A program made the position numbers and the translations under genes. Below the pieces are notes generated by a model that saw only the letters and a program-made list of their open reading frames with translations, was not told where the DNA came from and did not search any database. Of a stretch of DNA of 35,749 nucleotides, positions 2,540 to 25,594 are shown piece after piece. The number at the start of each line of letters is the position of its first letter. Position 1 is the first letter of the stretch. Origin of the DNA: Bacillota bacterium (lineage in GTDB: Bacteria > Bacillota > Bacilli > Alicyclobacillales > SLC66); assembly GCA_026627345.1 (NCBI GenBank), contig JAPNUP010000081.1, positions 1 through 35,749 on the forward strand. Reading direction: 5' to 3'.

Positions 2540-2569
2540 ACCTTATGACACAAAAGCGTTGTCCTATAC
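2540..2569 (-). promoter_or_regulatory. possible sporulation (sigma-E-like) promoter of the recombinase
   Basis: On the minus strand a GTATAG element (2564-2569) is followed after 16 bases by CATAAGGT (2540-2547), which resembles the sigma-E/sigma-K -10 element (CATA...T). It sits about 120 bases upstream of the recombinase start. B. subtilis spoIVCA is made in the mother cell under sigma-E, so such a promoter would fit. The match is partial and this is a tentative call. Confidence 0.3.
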
Positions 2570-2950
2570 CGCCACTGGGACTCTTCGCCGCAGGCGCGTT
2601 GACAGTAGAATCTCATTTTCAATGCAGCGTGCAGCGTATGTGGCGAACTTCGTCCCCGCGTCGGCGCGAAAACTTTTCACCGCTTTAATCAGACCAATCG
2701 TGCCAAGAGAAATCAGGTCATCTTCTTCCACTCCTGAATCTCGAAATTTCTTCGATATAAAGGCAACGAGGCGCAGGTTATGTTCCACGAGTGTGTGAAA
2801 CGCATTTTCGTCCCCTTGCGCAATGAGTTTCAGGCAGTTGCGTTCGTCTGACTCGTTTAGCGGATGCGGGAATGCCTGGTTTTTGACATACGAAACCATG
2901 CAGACGGACTCGCGTACGGCCAGAGTGATCAGTGAAGCCAAAAGTGGCAC
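2564..2950 (-). CDS. sigK: pro-sigma-K, N-terminal half of a split gene (SpoIVCB part)
   Basis: This encodes the first 115 or so residues of the mother-cell sigma factor K. The 20-residue pro-sequence ends at MVS, just before YVKNQAFPHPL, exactly where B. subtilis pro-sigma-K is cleaved. Region 1.2/2 motifs follow (NLRLVAFISKKF, GTIGLIKAVKSF, ATYAARCIENEIL). Homology stops right after ENEIL. The frame then runs through about 13 unrelated residues to TAG, so regions 3 and 4 are missing. The start is GTG at 2950 with AGGAGGG 7 bases upstream. A serine recombinase follows directly, as in the B. subtilis skin arrangement. As encoded here the product cannot be a complete sigma factor; the 3' half should lie beyond position 1. 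The intact reading frame and pro-sequence argue against simple decay. Confidence 0.92.
   Translation of the reverse strand: MPLLASLITLAVRESVCMVSYVKNQAFPHPLNESDERNCLKLIAQGDENAFHTLVEHNLRLVAFISKKFRDSGVEEDDLISLGTIGLIKAVKSFRADAGTKFATYAARCIENEILLSTRLRRRVPVAV
2605..2625 (-). other. sigK/element junction, probable recombinase attachment site
   Basis: The break point between sigK-like and element sequence lies around the minus-strand AATGA (2613-2617) in the codons for IENEIL. In B. subtilis the skin element recombines at this same stretch of sigK, with AATGA as the shared core (from memory). The exact site can only be fixed by comparison with the other junction, which is outside the window. Confidence 0.6.
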
Positions 2951-19082: not shown

Positions 19083-19901
19083 TCAGACTGATTCATCCAT
19101 CTGCATGTGAACCACCATTTTGCCGAGCGGCTTTTTGTCGCCCCACTGCGGTTCACGTGTGACTCCGACTGCAACAAAACTCAAGGATTGCGGAACCATC
19201 GCCGTTACGGTCGCTTGACCGCCTGCTGCGGGGACAAATTCACCGAATCCGATGTGCTTACCACTTTGCGTGACCACCCACAACTCGTAGCACCCGTTGG
19301 CGGGGGCAGGAGGCATCTCCTTTAAAGCCAGCGTTAACTGCATCATATCCGCCTGGCGCTTCATCATGAGCACTCCATGCGTATGTGGAAACGTAGCAGA
19401 AGCTTCCATCTTAAGCGGCGTCCCTAATAACCGGTTAACGCCGGACGATCCGTGCACCACCAAGAAGATCCCTAGTATCACCGCAGCCCCCGCACCAATG
19501 ACCCCAAGCCAGCCATTTCGGGCGCGCCGAACTGTCGATTTGCGACTGACAAGCGGCTGATATGCAGGAGTGGGCAATGAATCGGAGACGGGTGTAGCCT
19601 CCGGCGCCCTAACTGCAAAGGCAGCTTGAAGTGTCGTCGCCTTTAGCGCTTCGAAGTTCGCTGGTGCCACGTGCTTTACCCCATCAGGCTCGCCTGTTTG
19701 TGCCGATTCATCGTTTTCTGGCCAAGGCGCCTCTGTCAAAAGCGTATGAGCCAACTGCAAATCCGTCCACTCTTGCTGACAGCGCAAACAACTTGTCAAG
19801 TGGACTGCGAACGACGACATCTGCTCCTCAGATAGTTCTCCGAGCAGATACTCCGTCAGCCTGTCACACTCCACCGGCGTCGTTTCATGCCTGTCTGTCA
19901 T
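19083..19901 (-). CDS. membrane anti-sigma factor, zinc-ZAS/RskA type
   Basis: This 272-residue anti-sigma factor has an N-terminal zinc anti-sigma domain, His34-x3-Cys38-x2-Cys41 with an upstream Cys12. A linker is followed by one membrane helix (about 130-150, GWLGVIGAGAAVILGIFLVV) and an extracellular RskA-like C-terminal domain (GCYELWVVTQSGKHIGFGEF). It should hold the adjacent ECF sigma at the membrane until a surface signal triggers release. It overlaps the sigma gene by 4 bases (ATGA), so the pair is translationally coupled. The signal is unknown. Confidence 0.92.
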   Translation of the reverse strand: MTDRHETTPVECDRLTEYLLGELSEEQMSSFAVHLTSCLRCQQEWTDLQLAHTLLTEAPWPENDESAQTGEPDGVKHVAPANFEALKATTLQAAFAVRAPEATPVSDSLPTPAYQPLVSRKSTVRRARNGWLGVIGAGAAVILGIFLVVHGSSGVNRLLGTPLKMEASATFPHTHGVLMMKRQADMMQLTLALKEMPPAPANGCYELWVVTQSGKHIGFGEFVPAAGGQATVTAMVPQSLSFVAVGVTREPQWGDKKPLGKMVVHMQMDESV

Positions 19902-20476
19902 CCGAGCACCTCCAGCTTCCAGTCTGTCATACGCGTGCGCAACCGTAAGAGTCCTGCGTGAAGCCGCGTCTTGACAGTGCCAAGCGGCAAATCAAGGACA
20001 GTCGCCACTTCGCTGAGTGTGTAGCCGTGAAAATAGGCGAGTTCCAGGACCAACCGTTCCTCAGGCCGCAGACTGGACATTGCCGTTCGAAGTTCGCCTC
20101 GCACCAGTCGCCCTTGTACCTCTTTTTCGACACCTTCTGACGCTGGCAAATCGAGCAATGTGATGTCGAGCGGCACACCTGATTTATGAGAACGCAGGTG
20201 CTTACGCAGATGATCAATTGCAATTCGGCGCGCCACGACACTAAGCCAGTGGTCAAAAGCACCAAGCGCGGGCTTATAGCCTTGCGTCGTCCAAACGCGT
20301 GTAAACACATCTTGCACGATCTCTTCCAGCAACTGACGGTCAGATGTCAGTCGTCTGCCGATCGCAAAGACTTTGCTTGCATACCGATCGTACAGCAAGG
20401 ACAGTGCTTGACCATCTCCGCGTAAAACGCCTTCATACAACTCTTCATCGGTCAAACCGCAGACCCCCGTACGCAT
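19898..20476 (-). CDS. ECF (group 4) RNA polymerase sigma factor
   Basis: This is a sigma-70 family ECF factor. Region 2 has LYDRYASKVFAIGRR, EEIVQDVFTRVW and the -10 recognition helix FDHWLSVVARRIAIDHLRK. Region 4 has LRPEERLVLELAYFHGYTLSEVATVLDLPLGTVKTRLHAG, with the -35 helix at GTVKTRLHAG. I start it at ATG 20476; a GTG at 20518 is also in frame, but neither has a strong ribosome binding site. Its own promoter carries an ECF-type AACC/CGTA pair, so it is probably autoregulated. Confidence 0.93.
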   Translation of the reverse strand: MRTGVCGLTDEELYEGVLRGDGQALSLLYDRYASKVFAIGRRLTSDRQLLEEIVQDVFTRVWTTQGYKPALGAFDHWLSVVARRIAIDHLRKHLRSHKSGVPLDITLLDLPASEGVEKEVQGRLVRGELRTAMSSLRPEERLVLELAYFHGYTLSEVATVLDLPLGTVKTRLHAGLLRLRTRMTDWKLEVLG

Positions 20477-20540
20477 TTCTGATGCAACATTCCGGCGTGA
20501 CCGCCCATGGTCTAGCACAGCAAGGGTATGTCTCTATACA

Positions 20541-20565
20541 TACGCAACAATCCAGCTACACGGTT
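20541..20565 (-). promoter_or_regulatory. ECF-type promoter of the sigma/anti-sigma operon
   Basis: AACC (20562-20565) is followed after 17 bases by CGTA (20541-20544) on the minus strand, the usual -35 and -10 of ECF-dependent promoters. Transcription would begin near 20533, just ahead of the sigma gene. This points to positive autoregulation. Confidence 0.65.
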
Positions 20566-20575
20566 TTGCAATATC

Positions 20576-20604
20576 ACTGGCGTAGGCGCAGCGCCTACGC
20601 CAGT
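20576..20604 (-). terminator. perfect hairpin at the end of the YhaO/YhaN operon
   Basis: ACTGGCGTAGGCGC and its exact complement (14 bases each) flank a single A. The hairpin contains the stop codon of the 40-residue gene and sits directly upstream of the ECF promoter. There is no T-run, so it may insulate the two operons or affect mRNA stability rather than act as a classical terminator. Confidence 0.5.
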
Positions 20605-20717
20605 TCACCTGCGACAGGACGTGCGGCAAAGGCTGCCGCCAGCAAGAAAAACACGACAAACATCGCGAGAAACCCGATCATCCAAGGTGTCAACCCATAG
20701 TCACTGATCCACTCCAT
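20595..20717 (-). CDS. 40-residue single-pass membrane protein
   Basis: A short open frame runs from ATG 20717 to TAG 20595 with TAGGAGGTG 6-7 bases upstream, a near-perfect ribosome binding site. The product starts MEWISDYGLTPWMIGFLAMF, continues as a strongly hydrophobic helix (about residues 12-31) and ends in a short polar tail (ARPVAGELA). It lies 27 bases downstream of the YhaN-like gene on the same strand, so it is probably cotranscribed. I do not recognise a family. The strong ribosome binding site and clean membrane-helix pattern make it a likely real gene. Confidence 0.7.
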   Translation of the reverse strand: MEWISDYGLTPWMIGFLAMFVVFFLLAAAFAARPVAGELA

Positions 20718-20744
20718 CGCCTGCACCTCCTAGACCGCTCACGC

Positions 20745-23700
20745 CTACTGTATGCGCACCCGCCCGCTTAGGGCCGGGCTCTCGCCTAACTCGTGAAGGC
20801 GCACAGCATCCGCACCTGCAAGGCGCAACATGAGCGCCGCGATGTGCTTATGATGCGTGAAGTAGATGACTTGCGTATGCGCAGATAACTCCCGCAGCAC
20901 TTCAAGGGTCGCTGCAGCCCGCTCATCATCAAAATGCACAAGGATGTCGTCCATGATCAGCGGCAACGGACCTTCCGCCGCCATGTAGTGCTCGACAAAA
21001 GAGAGGCGTAGCGCCAGATGCAATTGATCGCGCGTTCCATCGCTCAATTGACTAATCCGGCGGGAACTGCCGTCAGCCGCGAGCGCATAGAGATAAGGCG
21101 TTGTCTCCTCGTACTCCACGGTCAGTTCCCGATAACGGTGCAATGTCAGCCTGGCAAAGATTTCACTGGCTCGTCCGAGAATCAGGGACTCTGTCTGGCC
21201 GCGAAAAATCTCTATGCCCCGTTCAAGAAGCTTTCGTGCGAGCGCAGCTCGTACGTATTCTTGCCACAGTCGGTCGACTTGCGCCAGTCTATTTTCAGCC
21301 TCTTGCGCCATCTGCGCAGCGGTGGCTTGACTGCCGTCTTGCAACCGCAAGCGTTCTCTCTTTACGCCCAAGGTCTGCGCCAACGAGTCGATCTTCTCGT
21401 TCAACTCGCTTTTTTGTTGAAGCAGTCCCTGCGCGCGCTCTTCCAACCTATCAAATGCGTCTCCCTGCAGGACGGACGCCACTTCTTCCTCCAGTTCACT
21501 AGGCGCACGCTCGTCTCCAGCCAAAGTCAGCTGTTTTTTCACCTGAGCTTGCTCCTCTTGCAACTGTCTGCGCGCTAAAGCCCTGTCGATCAACTGTAAG
21601 AGGGCCTGTGAATCGGCGGCGCCAAGACTCATGCGATACGCTTCCCACTGCGCCATGTCGGCCTCCTGCGCAGTTCGCACACTAGCTAGCTCAGTTTGCG
21701 CGCGACTGATATCGCGCGCAGACTGTGCAAGCCAACGATCCTCTTGCAACGCGTCTTCCATACGCTGATGCAGATAGGTAATGAGTGACTCGACGGAAGG
21801 TTGCTCCAGATGAGAACCCGGAATGTCCGGCAACTCTCCCGCAATCGCCTGACTCCGCTGTTCAAATGCCTCGCGCGCTTGCACGTGACGAGCCAGATCG
21901 GACTTCGCCCGCTGGTAATCCTCTACGGCCTGAAAGAGATCGCGCACCCGGTCGAGATAGCGCGTGACCGCTGCAGGGTCCGGCGGCAACGTAGGAAAAG
22001 ATGCGATCAGCGTTTGCCATTTGCCCTGACACTCTGCCAATTGTGCCTGAACGCCACTGCGTTTTCGCTGACTAGAGAGCAGTGCTTCCTGACTCTCTTC
22101 TACACGTTTCGCGCTCTCGGCACGCTGCCTATGCGCATCATCCAAGTGACGCACGATCCGCTCGAGACGACCGACAAGCTCAGACCATTCCGTGAGCGGC
22201 AACTGATCACCACTGGCCTCGGCTTCGAAAACCGTATCCTGCAGCCCTGCATCCGCCAGCATGCGTGCGACACTTCGCACCCAGTCGATCTTGCGCTGCG
22301 ACAGTGCCAAATGCTCACGCTTCATCTCGGATACACGCGCGTGTGCTTGCACGAGCGGCGTCCAGACCTCTTGCAACCACGCTTTCATCTCAGTCGGCGA
22401 GAGCGCTGCTTGTCCTAAATCTACCCATTCACCTTGCCAAGCTGCCATACGGAGCGTCCATTGCCGGTCTGCCTCTTGCGACGCCTGCTTGAACCTTGCG
22501 ATATCCAGTTCTCGCTGTTCCTTTTGCGCTAACCACTGTGCTCGTTGGGCAGACCGATCCGCCTCGCGGCGCAAACGATCAGCGACTTCATCCGCACGTT
22601 TAACAGCGGCCTCGTAAGCGTCAGGCAACGAAGCCTCTTCACCGAATGCCACCGTCTCTTGCGTGACGCCTTCTAGCCACACGCGCTTCACCCACTGCCA
22701 ACCCGTTTGACGATGCGCACGCGCTTGCGTCAAATCCGCTTCGACCGGGACCTGCCCCATCAGCGACAGGGTCTCTAGCTGCTCGCCTAGGTGCGCCAGA
22801 TCTTTGTTCGCTTCAACCCATTGCTGTTCGAGCTGCCGGGCATCGCGTTCTCTATCCAACCATTCCCGTTCATAACGTTCGATTGTCGCCATGAGCGGGA
22901 TCGACATCGCAACAGCTTCGTCGACTGTTCGACGACAGACCGTTTGCCGACTCCACATCAAACGAATGTCTTCCAGTGAGGCTGACCATTGCTTTTGCCA
23001 TTGCAGCAGGTTGTCATCCACATCTCCCCACGACATCGCAAGCTTCAGTAATCCCTGCAGGGGGGTGCTGTCCGGAGCTGCAGCGCATTGTTGCCACACC
23101 CGTTCACGCTGCGCGACCTCCGCTACAGTCTTGTCATAGCCCTCTTCTGCGGCTTCCAGCTGTACATGCAGATTCTGCCACAGCTGCGCCACCGCTCTGA
23201 TCTGCTCGCGTTCAGCCAGCGGTGTGCGGAGTTTCTCGATCTCTTGCAGATCGATATTCGGCGCCACCTCACGCCAGATAGACAGTACCTGTGTACGCAG
23301 GTCTTGCACCTGTTGCTCTAATCTCGGCATGTCGCGAACCGTTTGCCGGTACGCGTCGAGAGTGGCAAACAAGTGCCTGAGCGGCACTTCCTGAACCAAA
23401 ATGGCGGGATCTTCCTTATGCGTCGCACGTTCGTTCACCATCGCCGCCAGTGCCTGCTCGCGCTGCGCAATGTCCTTTTGCGCTTCATGCAAAGCGTTAT
23501 AGAGCGTAGGAATATGCTGTTCCCATGCCTGTGCTAACACAGGCACATCATCGAACGTCTGCAATTGGCTATGCAGTGCTCGCCATGTCAGTAAGACCGG
23601 ATACACCCGCTGCACGCGCCGAACGCTGGTAAGCGTCTTTTCCAGTTCACCCTGCTCGCGGCGAAACTGTGCAACTTGCCTCTCCATGGCCTCGATATCC

Positions 23701-24338
23701 TCGCGCAAAGCCAGCCAGTCTTCCCCGCGCAGTCCACTATCTCGAACCTTTGCGACAGCCTCCTGATAGAGACGCCATTCGGTGTTCAAAAGCCGCGTGC
23801 TATTGGATCGAAACGTCAGATCAGCGAGCCTGTTCACGCGTTCACCCAGTCCTGCCAGCGCGCCTTGCAGAAGCTGTACGCCCCCTCCAGCTTCAAACAG
23901 CGAGATACCTGCGTGACCGTCCGATGCCAGTAGACTTTCTCCGCCTATACGGAGGCGCTCATGATCGAATCCAAATAAGAGTCGGTAACGTTCGCGCGTC
24001 ATCGTGCCCAAGTAGGGTTGCAACACCTCTTGCCCCAAGACCTGATCGCGCGCATCTGTGAGCACCAACTGCGTGCGCTGTTTGCGACGTACAATCGTAA
24101 ACTCGGGTTCTCCCTCTTGCGACAGTGTGCCTGAAAGGCGCGACCGGCTGTGATACAAGTCTTTTTGAGCCTCTTCTACTTTCCCACCAAAAAGTAGGTC
24201 GACCAGCACTTGTAACATCGTGCTCTTCCCCGCTTCATTGGCCCCATAAATCAGTTGTAAGCCTGACTTGCCTGAGAAGTCCAGCTCTTGTCTTTCGAAA
24301 TGCAACACAGACTGCACCGTCAACTCTCGAATCCTCAT
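20745..24338 (-). CDS. yhaN: YhaN-like SMC/Rad50-type ATPase (SbcC analogue)
   Basis: This 1197-residue protein of the Rad50/SbcC class has an N-terminal half-ATPase with P-loop YGANEAGKST (about 31-40). Long coiled-coil arms follow, rich in Gln, Arg and Glu (about 170-1020). The C-terminal half-ATPase has the signature LSDGTRDQLHLALRLSF and Walker B LPLIMDDILVHFDDERA. The stretch GANEAGKSTMLQVLVDLLFG is typical of YhaN rather than canonical SbcC. It would form a complex with the adjacent YhaO nuclease for processing DNA ends. It is clearly longer than B. subtilis YhaN (963 residues, from memory), with the extra length in the arms. The start overlaps the yhaO stop by 4 bases. Confidence 0.9.
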   Translation of the reverse strand: MRIRELTVQSVLHFERQELDFSGKSGLQLIYGANEAGKSTMLQVLVDLLFGGKVEEAQKDLYHSRSRLSGTLSQEGEPEFTIVRRKQRTQLVLTDARDQVLGQEVLQPYLGTMTRERYRLLFGFDHERLRIGGESLLASDGHAGISLFEAGGGVQLLQGALAGLGERVNRLADLTFRSNSTRLLNTEWRLYQEAVAKVRDSGLRGEDWLALREDIEAMERQVAQFRREQGELEKTLTSVRRVQRVYPVLLTWRALHSQLQTFDDVPVLAQAWEQHIPTLYNALHEAQKDIAQREQALAAMVNERATHKEDPAILVQEVPLRHLFATLDAYRQTVRDMPRLEQQVQDLRTQVLSIWREVAPNIDLQEIEKLRTPLAEREQIRAVAQLWQNLHVQLEAAEEGYDKTVAEVAQRERVWQQCAAAPDSTPLQGLLKLAMSWGDVDDNLLQWQKQWSASLEDIRLMWSRQTVCRRTVDEAVAMSIPLMATIERYEREWLDRERDARQLEQQWVEANKDLAHLGEQLETLSLMGQVPVEADLTQARAHRQTGWQWVKRVWLEGVTQETVAFGEEASLPDAYEAAVKRADEVADRLRREADRSAQRAQWLAQKEQRELDIARFKQASQEADRQWTLRMAAWQGEWVDLGQAALSPTEMKAWLQEVWTPLVQAHARVSEMKREHLALSQRKIDWVRSVARMLADAGLQDTVFEAEASGDQLPLTEWSELVGRLERIVRHLDDAHRQRAESAKRVEESQEALLSSQRKRSGVQAQLAECQGKWQTLIASFPTLPPDPAAVTRYLDRVRDLFQAVEDYQRAKSDLARHVQAREAFEQRSQAIAGELPDIPGSHLEQPSVESLITYLHQRMEDALQEDRWLAQSARDISRAQTELASVRTAQEADMAQWEAYRMSLGAADSQALLQLIDRALARRQLQEEQAQVKKQLTLAGDERAPSELEEEVASVLQGDAFDRLEERAQGLLQQKSELNEKIDSLAQTLGVKRERLRLQDGSQATAAQMAQEAENRLAQVDRLWQEYVRAALARKLLERGIEIFRGQTESLILGRASEIFARLTLHRYRELTVEYEETTPYLYALAADGSSRRISQLSDGTRDQLHLALRLSFVEHYMAAEGPLPLIMDDILVHFDDERAAATLEVLRELSAHTQVIYFTHHKHIAALMLRLAGADAVRLHELGESPALSGRVRIQ

Positions 24339-25594
24339 ATGCGCCGCCCCGCTTTTGTCAAAGCGGAGAGCAATATGGCCTCCGCGTCTCGTGCCACAGC
24401 ACGCACATCTTCACTAGACGAGATAGGCAGCGCGCCTGGTGACTGCATGTACGTGCGCAGATGTTTCTGTGCGCCCGCCAACTCCGTGGCGAACGATTGT
24501 AAAAAGGACTCGTCGTCGGTCAATTCCCGAAGCGCAAGCAACAAGCGCGACATAGCGTCCTCCGGGAGCTGGCTCTCTGTGTGCGATAATGGCGCAAAAG
24601 TGCTGATCTGCACCTTCTCAAGCCACATGCGATCGCCCGCGACCAGCAGCGTCAGTGCTCGAACCTCGCTGTCTAGCTGCTCAGGATCACCCATAAAAGT
24701 CTCATGCAAGATCGTCTCTCCAGTCAAAGTCACGCGCACCGCCAGGGGATACCCTGCATGTTCATCCGCGAGCATCCAAAGCTCCGCTTCTATGCGCGAG
24801 AGAGCGTCCTCGGTCGTCTCTACGCCCTCTACGTCAACGTCGCAAGGACACCAGCGCAAAACATCCAGCGCGCGATGTTCGAGTGAAACCTCTCGTCCGT
24901 CGACGGTAACTACGGTGCACCCTTTGCTTCCGGTCTCGCGAATATGTCGGCCTTGCAGGTTGCCAGGAAAGACGATCCACGGGCGCTCTGCCAAAATCTC
25001 ACGCTTATGAATGTGTCCAAGTGCCCAGTAATCGTAGCCTTTAGCGATCAGATTCGCGACGCTACAAGGCGCGTAGGCTTCATGACCTTCGCGACCTTCC
25101 GCGCAGGTGTGCAAAAGACCGATGTTAAAGTATCCTGGGACTGGTTGCGGATAACGCTGCGACAAATCTTCCGTCACTGCGCGCGACGCAAATCCCTGCC
25201 CGTGAATCGCGACTTTGCAGGCTTCGACATAGGCTGTTTCTGGACGGTCGACTGGGAACTCCACCACGTTGTCCGGCAACGAAAGCCGTCGCGTAATCTG
25301 ACTGGCTGCATCGTGATTCCCGCGAATCAGAAACACCGCAATGCCATGCTCACGCAGCCGCACCATCTGACTGTAAAAAAATAGTCCAGTGGAATAATCC
25401 TCCCAATCCCCGTCGTAGATATCCCCTGCGATCACGAGAAACGCGACTTTCTCTGTGATACACAGTCGCACGAGATTCTCCAGCGCCTTGCGCGTGGCTC
25501 CCCGGATGGCCTCTATCGGCGCACCATCTTTAGCGGCCAGACCACGTAAAGGGCTATCTAAGTGGAGATCTGCACAATGAACGAAACGAAACAC
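24335..25594 (-). CDS. yhaO: YhaO-like metallophosphoesterase DNA nuclease (SbcD analogue)
   Basis: This 419-residue calcineurin-like phosphoesterase has the Mre11/SbcD metal motifs in order: CADLHLDSPL (DxH), AGDIYDG (GDxxD), IRGNHDA (GNHD), GLLHTCAEG and ALGHIHKRE (GHxH). The C-terminal cap of about 170 residues is family-specific. It is probably a Mn-dependent exo/endonuclease acting with YhaN in DNA repair. The start is GTG 25594 with AGGAG 9 bases upstream. It is divergent from topB across a 144-base gap. Confidence 0.93.
   Translation of the reverse strand: MFRFVHCADLHLDSPLRGLAAKDGAPIEAIRGATRKALENLVRLCITEKVAFLVIAGDIYDGDWEDYSTGLFFYSQMVRLREHGIAVFLIRGNHDAASQITRRLSLPDNVVEFPVDRPETAYVEACKVAIHGQGFASRAVTEDLSQRYPQPVPGYFNIGLLHTCAEGREGHEAYAPCSVANLIAKGYDYWALGHIHKREILAERPWIVFPGNLQGRHIRETGSKGCTVVTVDGREVSLEHRALDVLRWCPCDVDVEGVETTEDALSRIEAELWMLADEHAGYPLAVRVTLTGETILHETFMGDPEQLDSEVRALTLLVAGDRMWLEKVQISTFAPLSHTESQLPEDAMSRLLLALRELTDDESFLQSFATELAGAQKHLRTYMQSPGALPISSSEDVRAVARDAEAILLSALTKAGRRI

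Follow-up and report, generated by a model that had tools for sequence, protein, structure and literature searches.

The window (i.e. the whole 35,749-nt stretch of DNA that was analysed) carries on its minus strand a yhaO-like gene for an SbcD/Mre11-like phosphoesterase (24335..25594) and, behind it, a yhaN-like ATPase gene (20745..24338). As the two products match the calcineurin-like phosphoesterase family and Pfam AAA_27 (E 4.7e-42), respectively, the original prediction was fair in naming them YhaO and YhaN. Downstream of yhaN on the same strand lies a small ORF (20595..20717), read from an ATG at 20717 to a TAG at 20597-20595, whose 40-residue product, MEWISDYGLTPWMIGFLAMFVVFFLLAAAFAARPVAGELA, is a predicted single-pass membrane micropeptide with the family motif [GMA]L[TS]PW[MI][IV]GF. 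Its stop codon falls within a perfect 14-bp inverted repeat (20576..20604, minus strand; arms 20576-20589 and 20591-20604, 100% complementary and 1 nt apart), as originally described. Further along the same strand are the genes for an ECF sigma factor (19898..20518, start codon uncertain; Pfam sigma-70 regions 2 and 4) and an anti-sigma factor (19083..19901; zf-HC2, RskA_C).

The small ORF has the signals of a translated gene. A strong Shine-Dalgarno site (TAGGAGGTG, 20724..20732, minus strand) ends 6 nt before the ATG, and this start is preferred over an alternative GTG at 20726, which would give a product of 43 residues, because the GTG falls within the ribosome binding site. When ORFs of 25-60 aa were required to show a 19-residue mean hydropathy of at least 2.3 together with a Shine-Dalgarno match of at least 5, the ORF was the only one in the window to qualify, and none did so in 30 Markov-1 random windows. 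AlphaFold2, given five homologues as input, predicts a single helix over residues 11-39, with a pLDDT of ~95 over residues 11-30, and with fewer than ~50 residues and one predicted membrane helix the product fits the general class of small single-pass membrane proteins. No Pfam or NCBIfam entry matched it over cut-off; the matches to Pfam MAP17 and PsbH fell below cut-off and were taken as chance.

Homologues were sought in 81 genomes and, with a profile, in the 59 genomes of the order. Clear homologues, all preceded by a plausible ribosome binding site, are present in one genome of the same genus (G001), one of the same family (G006) and two of the same order (G046 and G044), which together with the window's genome (G000) makes 5 carriers among 59; a weaker possible member was found in G056 (E 1.4e-4, profile search). 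Besides the start, residues L9, P11, W12, G15, F16, F20, F23 and F24 are invariant. A search of one genome per species (84,980 species) returned 3 loci, those of G006, G001 and G046, from two Bacillota MAGs and Alicyclobacillus pomorum DSM 14955, and viral contigs yielded no relative of the micropeptide. The family is sparse and restricted to the order of Alicyclobacillus. Synonymous differences outnumber non-synonymous ones in all ten pairs of members (pN/pS 0.23-0.59), which shows that selection acts on the encoded protein. Lysine or arginine is missing before the helix and occurs at least once after it in all 5 members, from which the positive-inside rule predicts an N-out/C-in topology, with the arginine-bearing C-terminus in the cytoplasm.

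These results leave little room for a fortuitous, untranslated ORF. The evidence for a gene comes from sequence, as an advocate of that reading could point out, but the frame has conserved homologues at four other loci, selection on it is purifying and its Shine-Dalgarno site is strong, and we give this reading a negligible likelihood. The ORF is, by its sequence, a genuine gene, as originally proposed on the strength of its ribosome binding site, its single membrane helix and the placement of its stop codon, all of which hold up; the chance control, the homologues and pN/pS agree, and the frame conservation and translation signal whose absence had been named as grounds for abandoning the gene are both present. 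Genes this short often escape annotation, and this one passes the tests of reality.

The surroundings of the gene change from genome to genome. In G001 it is followed, as in the window, by genes for the ECF sigma factor, the anti-sigma factor, a guanylate kinase-like protein and AsnB, while a divergent EAL/GGDEF gene stands in the place of yhaN. The homologue in G006 has ABC transporter genes on one side and a GGDEF-EAL gene on the other, beyond which come the kinase-like gene and asnB; that of G046 comes after a gene for a metallo-beta-lactamase-fold protein, and that of G044 is divergent from a ptsH-like gene (the ptsH name being read from sequence). A GGDEF/EAL gene thus adjoins the micropeptide gene in G006 and G001 (L038:7949-9682 and L039:7570-9228) and is absent beside the other carriers. 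The guanylate kinase-like/asnB block occurs in G000, G001 and G006; a conserved association with it was considered and rejected, as 13 further genomes from the same taxonomic family showed no member of the micropeptide family near it (in some of them the contig ends close to the block).

Only in the window's genome does yhaN lie directly upstream of the micropeptide gene, and this bears on the proposal that the micropeptide is a co-transcribed accessory of YhaO/YhaN, anchoring or regulating the nuclease at the membrane. The arrangement in the window favours it: the gene is on the same strand, 27 nt behind the yhaN stop codon, with a strong Shine-Dalgarno site and no match to a sigma-70-type promoter in between, so that read-through from yhaN is allowed and, the gap being this short, co-transcription with yhaON is possible in this genome. 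The relatives do not follow suit. None of the 4 homologues adjoins yhaN, and the 700 nt downstream of some 20 further yhaN copies from relatives (a list that includes one locus with an N-terminal fragment and the window itself) hold neither a family member nor a comparable membrane ORF, which is what the search for small membrane proteins suggested at the outset had been meant to find. By our reading of the search, a YhaN orthologue is present in 23 of the order's 59 genomes, yet none was found in two of the five micropeptide carriers, G046 and G006 (the latter genome 81% complete), and in G044 the two genes are ~3 Mb apart. Carriage of the micropeptide and of yhaN shows no association (3/5 carriers versus 20/54 other genomes, Fisher p 0.29). 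In the accessible parts of the literature naming both YhaN and YhaO, no small membrane protein is mentioned with them. With neither conserved adjacency to yhaON nor co-occurrence with it, the anchoring or regulatory role is unsupported and, in our judgement, very unlikely; in the window's genome the gene seems to have come to lie after yhaN by chance. Gene order in one genome can hint at a partnership that relatives fail to confirm.

The stretch upstream of the micropeptide gene admits two readings. Positions 20732..20786 (minus strand), which overlap the last yhaN codons, are conserved with G001 in an alignment of 55 columns whose score was reached by 0 of 500 shuffles, and they hold a -10-like element, CGCATACAGT, that adjoins the yhaN stop codon. 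In G001 the conserved stretch is flanked by the EAL gene and the micropeptide gene, at a site where yhaN is absent. It may be the micropeptide's own promoter, or it may be the decayed end of a lost or ancestral yhaN, a reading favoured by the weak resemblance of LYETGQVPA to LHELGESPA in one frame. Such a degenerate yhaN-like tail 5' of the G001 homologue is a further point for the YhaO/YhaN accessory, as the adjacency may then be ancestral in the genus. We favour a promoter of the micropeptide's own, probably overlapping the 3' end of yhaN.

On the other side of the gene, the inverted repeat is predicted to fold into a strong RNA hairpin (-48.5 kcal/mol, z -3.6) without a U tract. A hairpin follows the stop codon in 3 of the 4 loci that were folded (G000, G001 and G044, not G006). 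It is not a dispersed repeat, being single-copy in the genome, nor an intrinsic terminator, as it lacks the U tract and is absent from the terminator scan; for want of that tract it may act as a factor-dependent terminator or stabilise the 3' end, and it is the probable 3' end of the micropeptide unit or separator between it and the sigma gene. Between hairpin and sigma gene lies an ECF-type promoter-like site, AAAACCG-N16-CGTATG (20539..20567, minus strand), conserved in G001 (C159:10653-10681; shared pattern AAAACCG-N16-CGTA). The pattern has three further matches in the genome (C41, C142 and C162), and a reversed control gives matches too.

These features weigh on a second candidate partner, the sigma/anti-sigma pair, for which the micropeptide could be a regulatory peptide, with the membrane anti-sigma factor, for instance, as its target. 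The micropeptide gene is immediately upstream of the pair, on the same strand, in G000 and G001, the two genomes of the genus, and the intervening sequence is conserved between them, as such a function would have it. Against this, no sigma pair is found beside the homologues of G006, G046 and G044, and the hairpin and the ECF-type site, standing between the genes, suggest that micropeptide and sigma gene are separate transcription units. A role with the sigma pair is therefore, to our mind, unlikely.

Comparison with known tiny proteins yielded likeness of form. YjcZ and its relatives (tiny_TM_bacill, TIGR01732) are tiny one-helix proteins of spore formers, as is the micropeptide in size, helix and host; membership was rejected, since none of 41 genomes (the window's genome and 40 relatives) has a match over the curated cut-off, which 1 of 14 control genomes passes. 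MgrB, AcrZ and CydX are bacterial one-helix micropeptides, and they and YohP share with our product a length of fewer than 50 residues, one membrane helix and the lack of a catalytic domain, a likeness in size and helix, with no sequence relation apparent.

Closer at hand is a group of look-alikes, the GGYTRWAVVFLIIFVLFFLLVP group, which comprises tiny one-helix proteins that are spread across the order, many to a genome and often in tandem; examples from the window's own genome and its relatives are L002, L005, L006, L091 and L092. The group resembles the micropeptide in size, in its single helix and in its order, and shares with it G-[YL]-T-x-W before the helix and F-x-x-F-F-L within it. It differs in having R or Q at the position of the conserved P, in lacking a charged residue directly after the helix, in its mostly Gly/Tyr/Thr/Val-rich tails and in its many copies per genome. 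Comparison of the two profiles with hhalign gave a probability of 94.9 (E 4.7e-8, 48% identity over 29 columns), although the alignments are short, hydrophobic and shallow and the match may be partly compositional. The GLTPW family of the micropeptide looks like a divergent branch of this uncatalogued group. A member of the group had no Pfam or NCBIfam match over cut-off, and plasmids gave no match for the group; being order-wide and multi-copy without an entry in either database, it may merit a study of its own.

The many copies of these look-alikes would also fit a type I toxin-like hydrophobic peptide under antisense RNA control, a class that the micropeptide likewise suits in its size, its single helix, its strong ribosome binding site and the hairpin close by. 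The plus strand across the gene showed no sigma-70-type promoter match, however, the only Rfam matches in the window are a tRNA and the SRP RNA, and the C-termini of the GGYTRWAVVFLIIFVLFFLLVP group have few charges. We consider a toxin of this kind unlikely.

The same group provides a lead towards sporulation. A sigma-E-like -10 element lies upstream of 12 of 34 non-redundant members, compared to 8 of 74 other genes (p 0.003). The group's upstream regions are depleted in sigma-A-like -10 elements (p 0.005). The reversed sigma-E control motif was mildly enriched as well (p 0.018), and the GTCATA -35 motif was not enriched. CATANNNT, a motif spotted post hoc, occurs in 4 of the 5 upstream regions of the micropeptide family. 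As the control motif is enriched too, a sigma-E/K promoter is suggestive only, and a role of the micropeptide in sporulation under sigma-E is a tentative proposal. More doubtful is the wider idea that the micropeptide and its look-alikes form one undescribed, order-specific superfamily, which the mother cell would express during sporulation and which would shape the forespore membranes, with the GLTPW branch as a single-copy offshoot with a partner of its own.

Taken together, we consider it probable that the locus encodes a genuine, order-restricted single-pass micropeptide without a partner in YhaO/YhaN, probably with its own promoter and possibly linked to sporulation. Transcription would start from that promoter, overlapping the yhaN 3' end, and the unit would end at the strong hairpin; the product would then insert into the membrane as a single helix, N-out/C-in. 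YohP is a bacterial one-helix micropeptide studied in Escherichia coli (PMC7549839, PMC12719787), and by analogy with known micropeptides the helix likely either packs onto a larger protein in the membrane or changes the membrane around it. It may do so on sporulation membranes, under sigma-E.

In line with the sporulation reading, the window's genome has a gene for sigma-E and one for sigma-K, the latter split. The N-terminal half of the sigma-K gene lies in the window beside that of a large serine recombinase (891-2492 and 2564-2950, minus strand), and the C-terminal half is on another contig (G000:C86, about 52,650-53,080). The arrangement resembles the skin element of Bacillus subtilis, and a sigK-integrated prophage has been reported in Alicyclobacillus acidoterrestris (PMC13141910).
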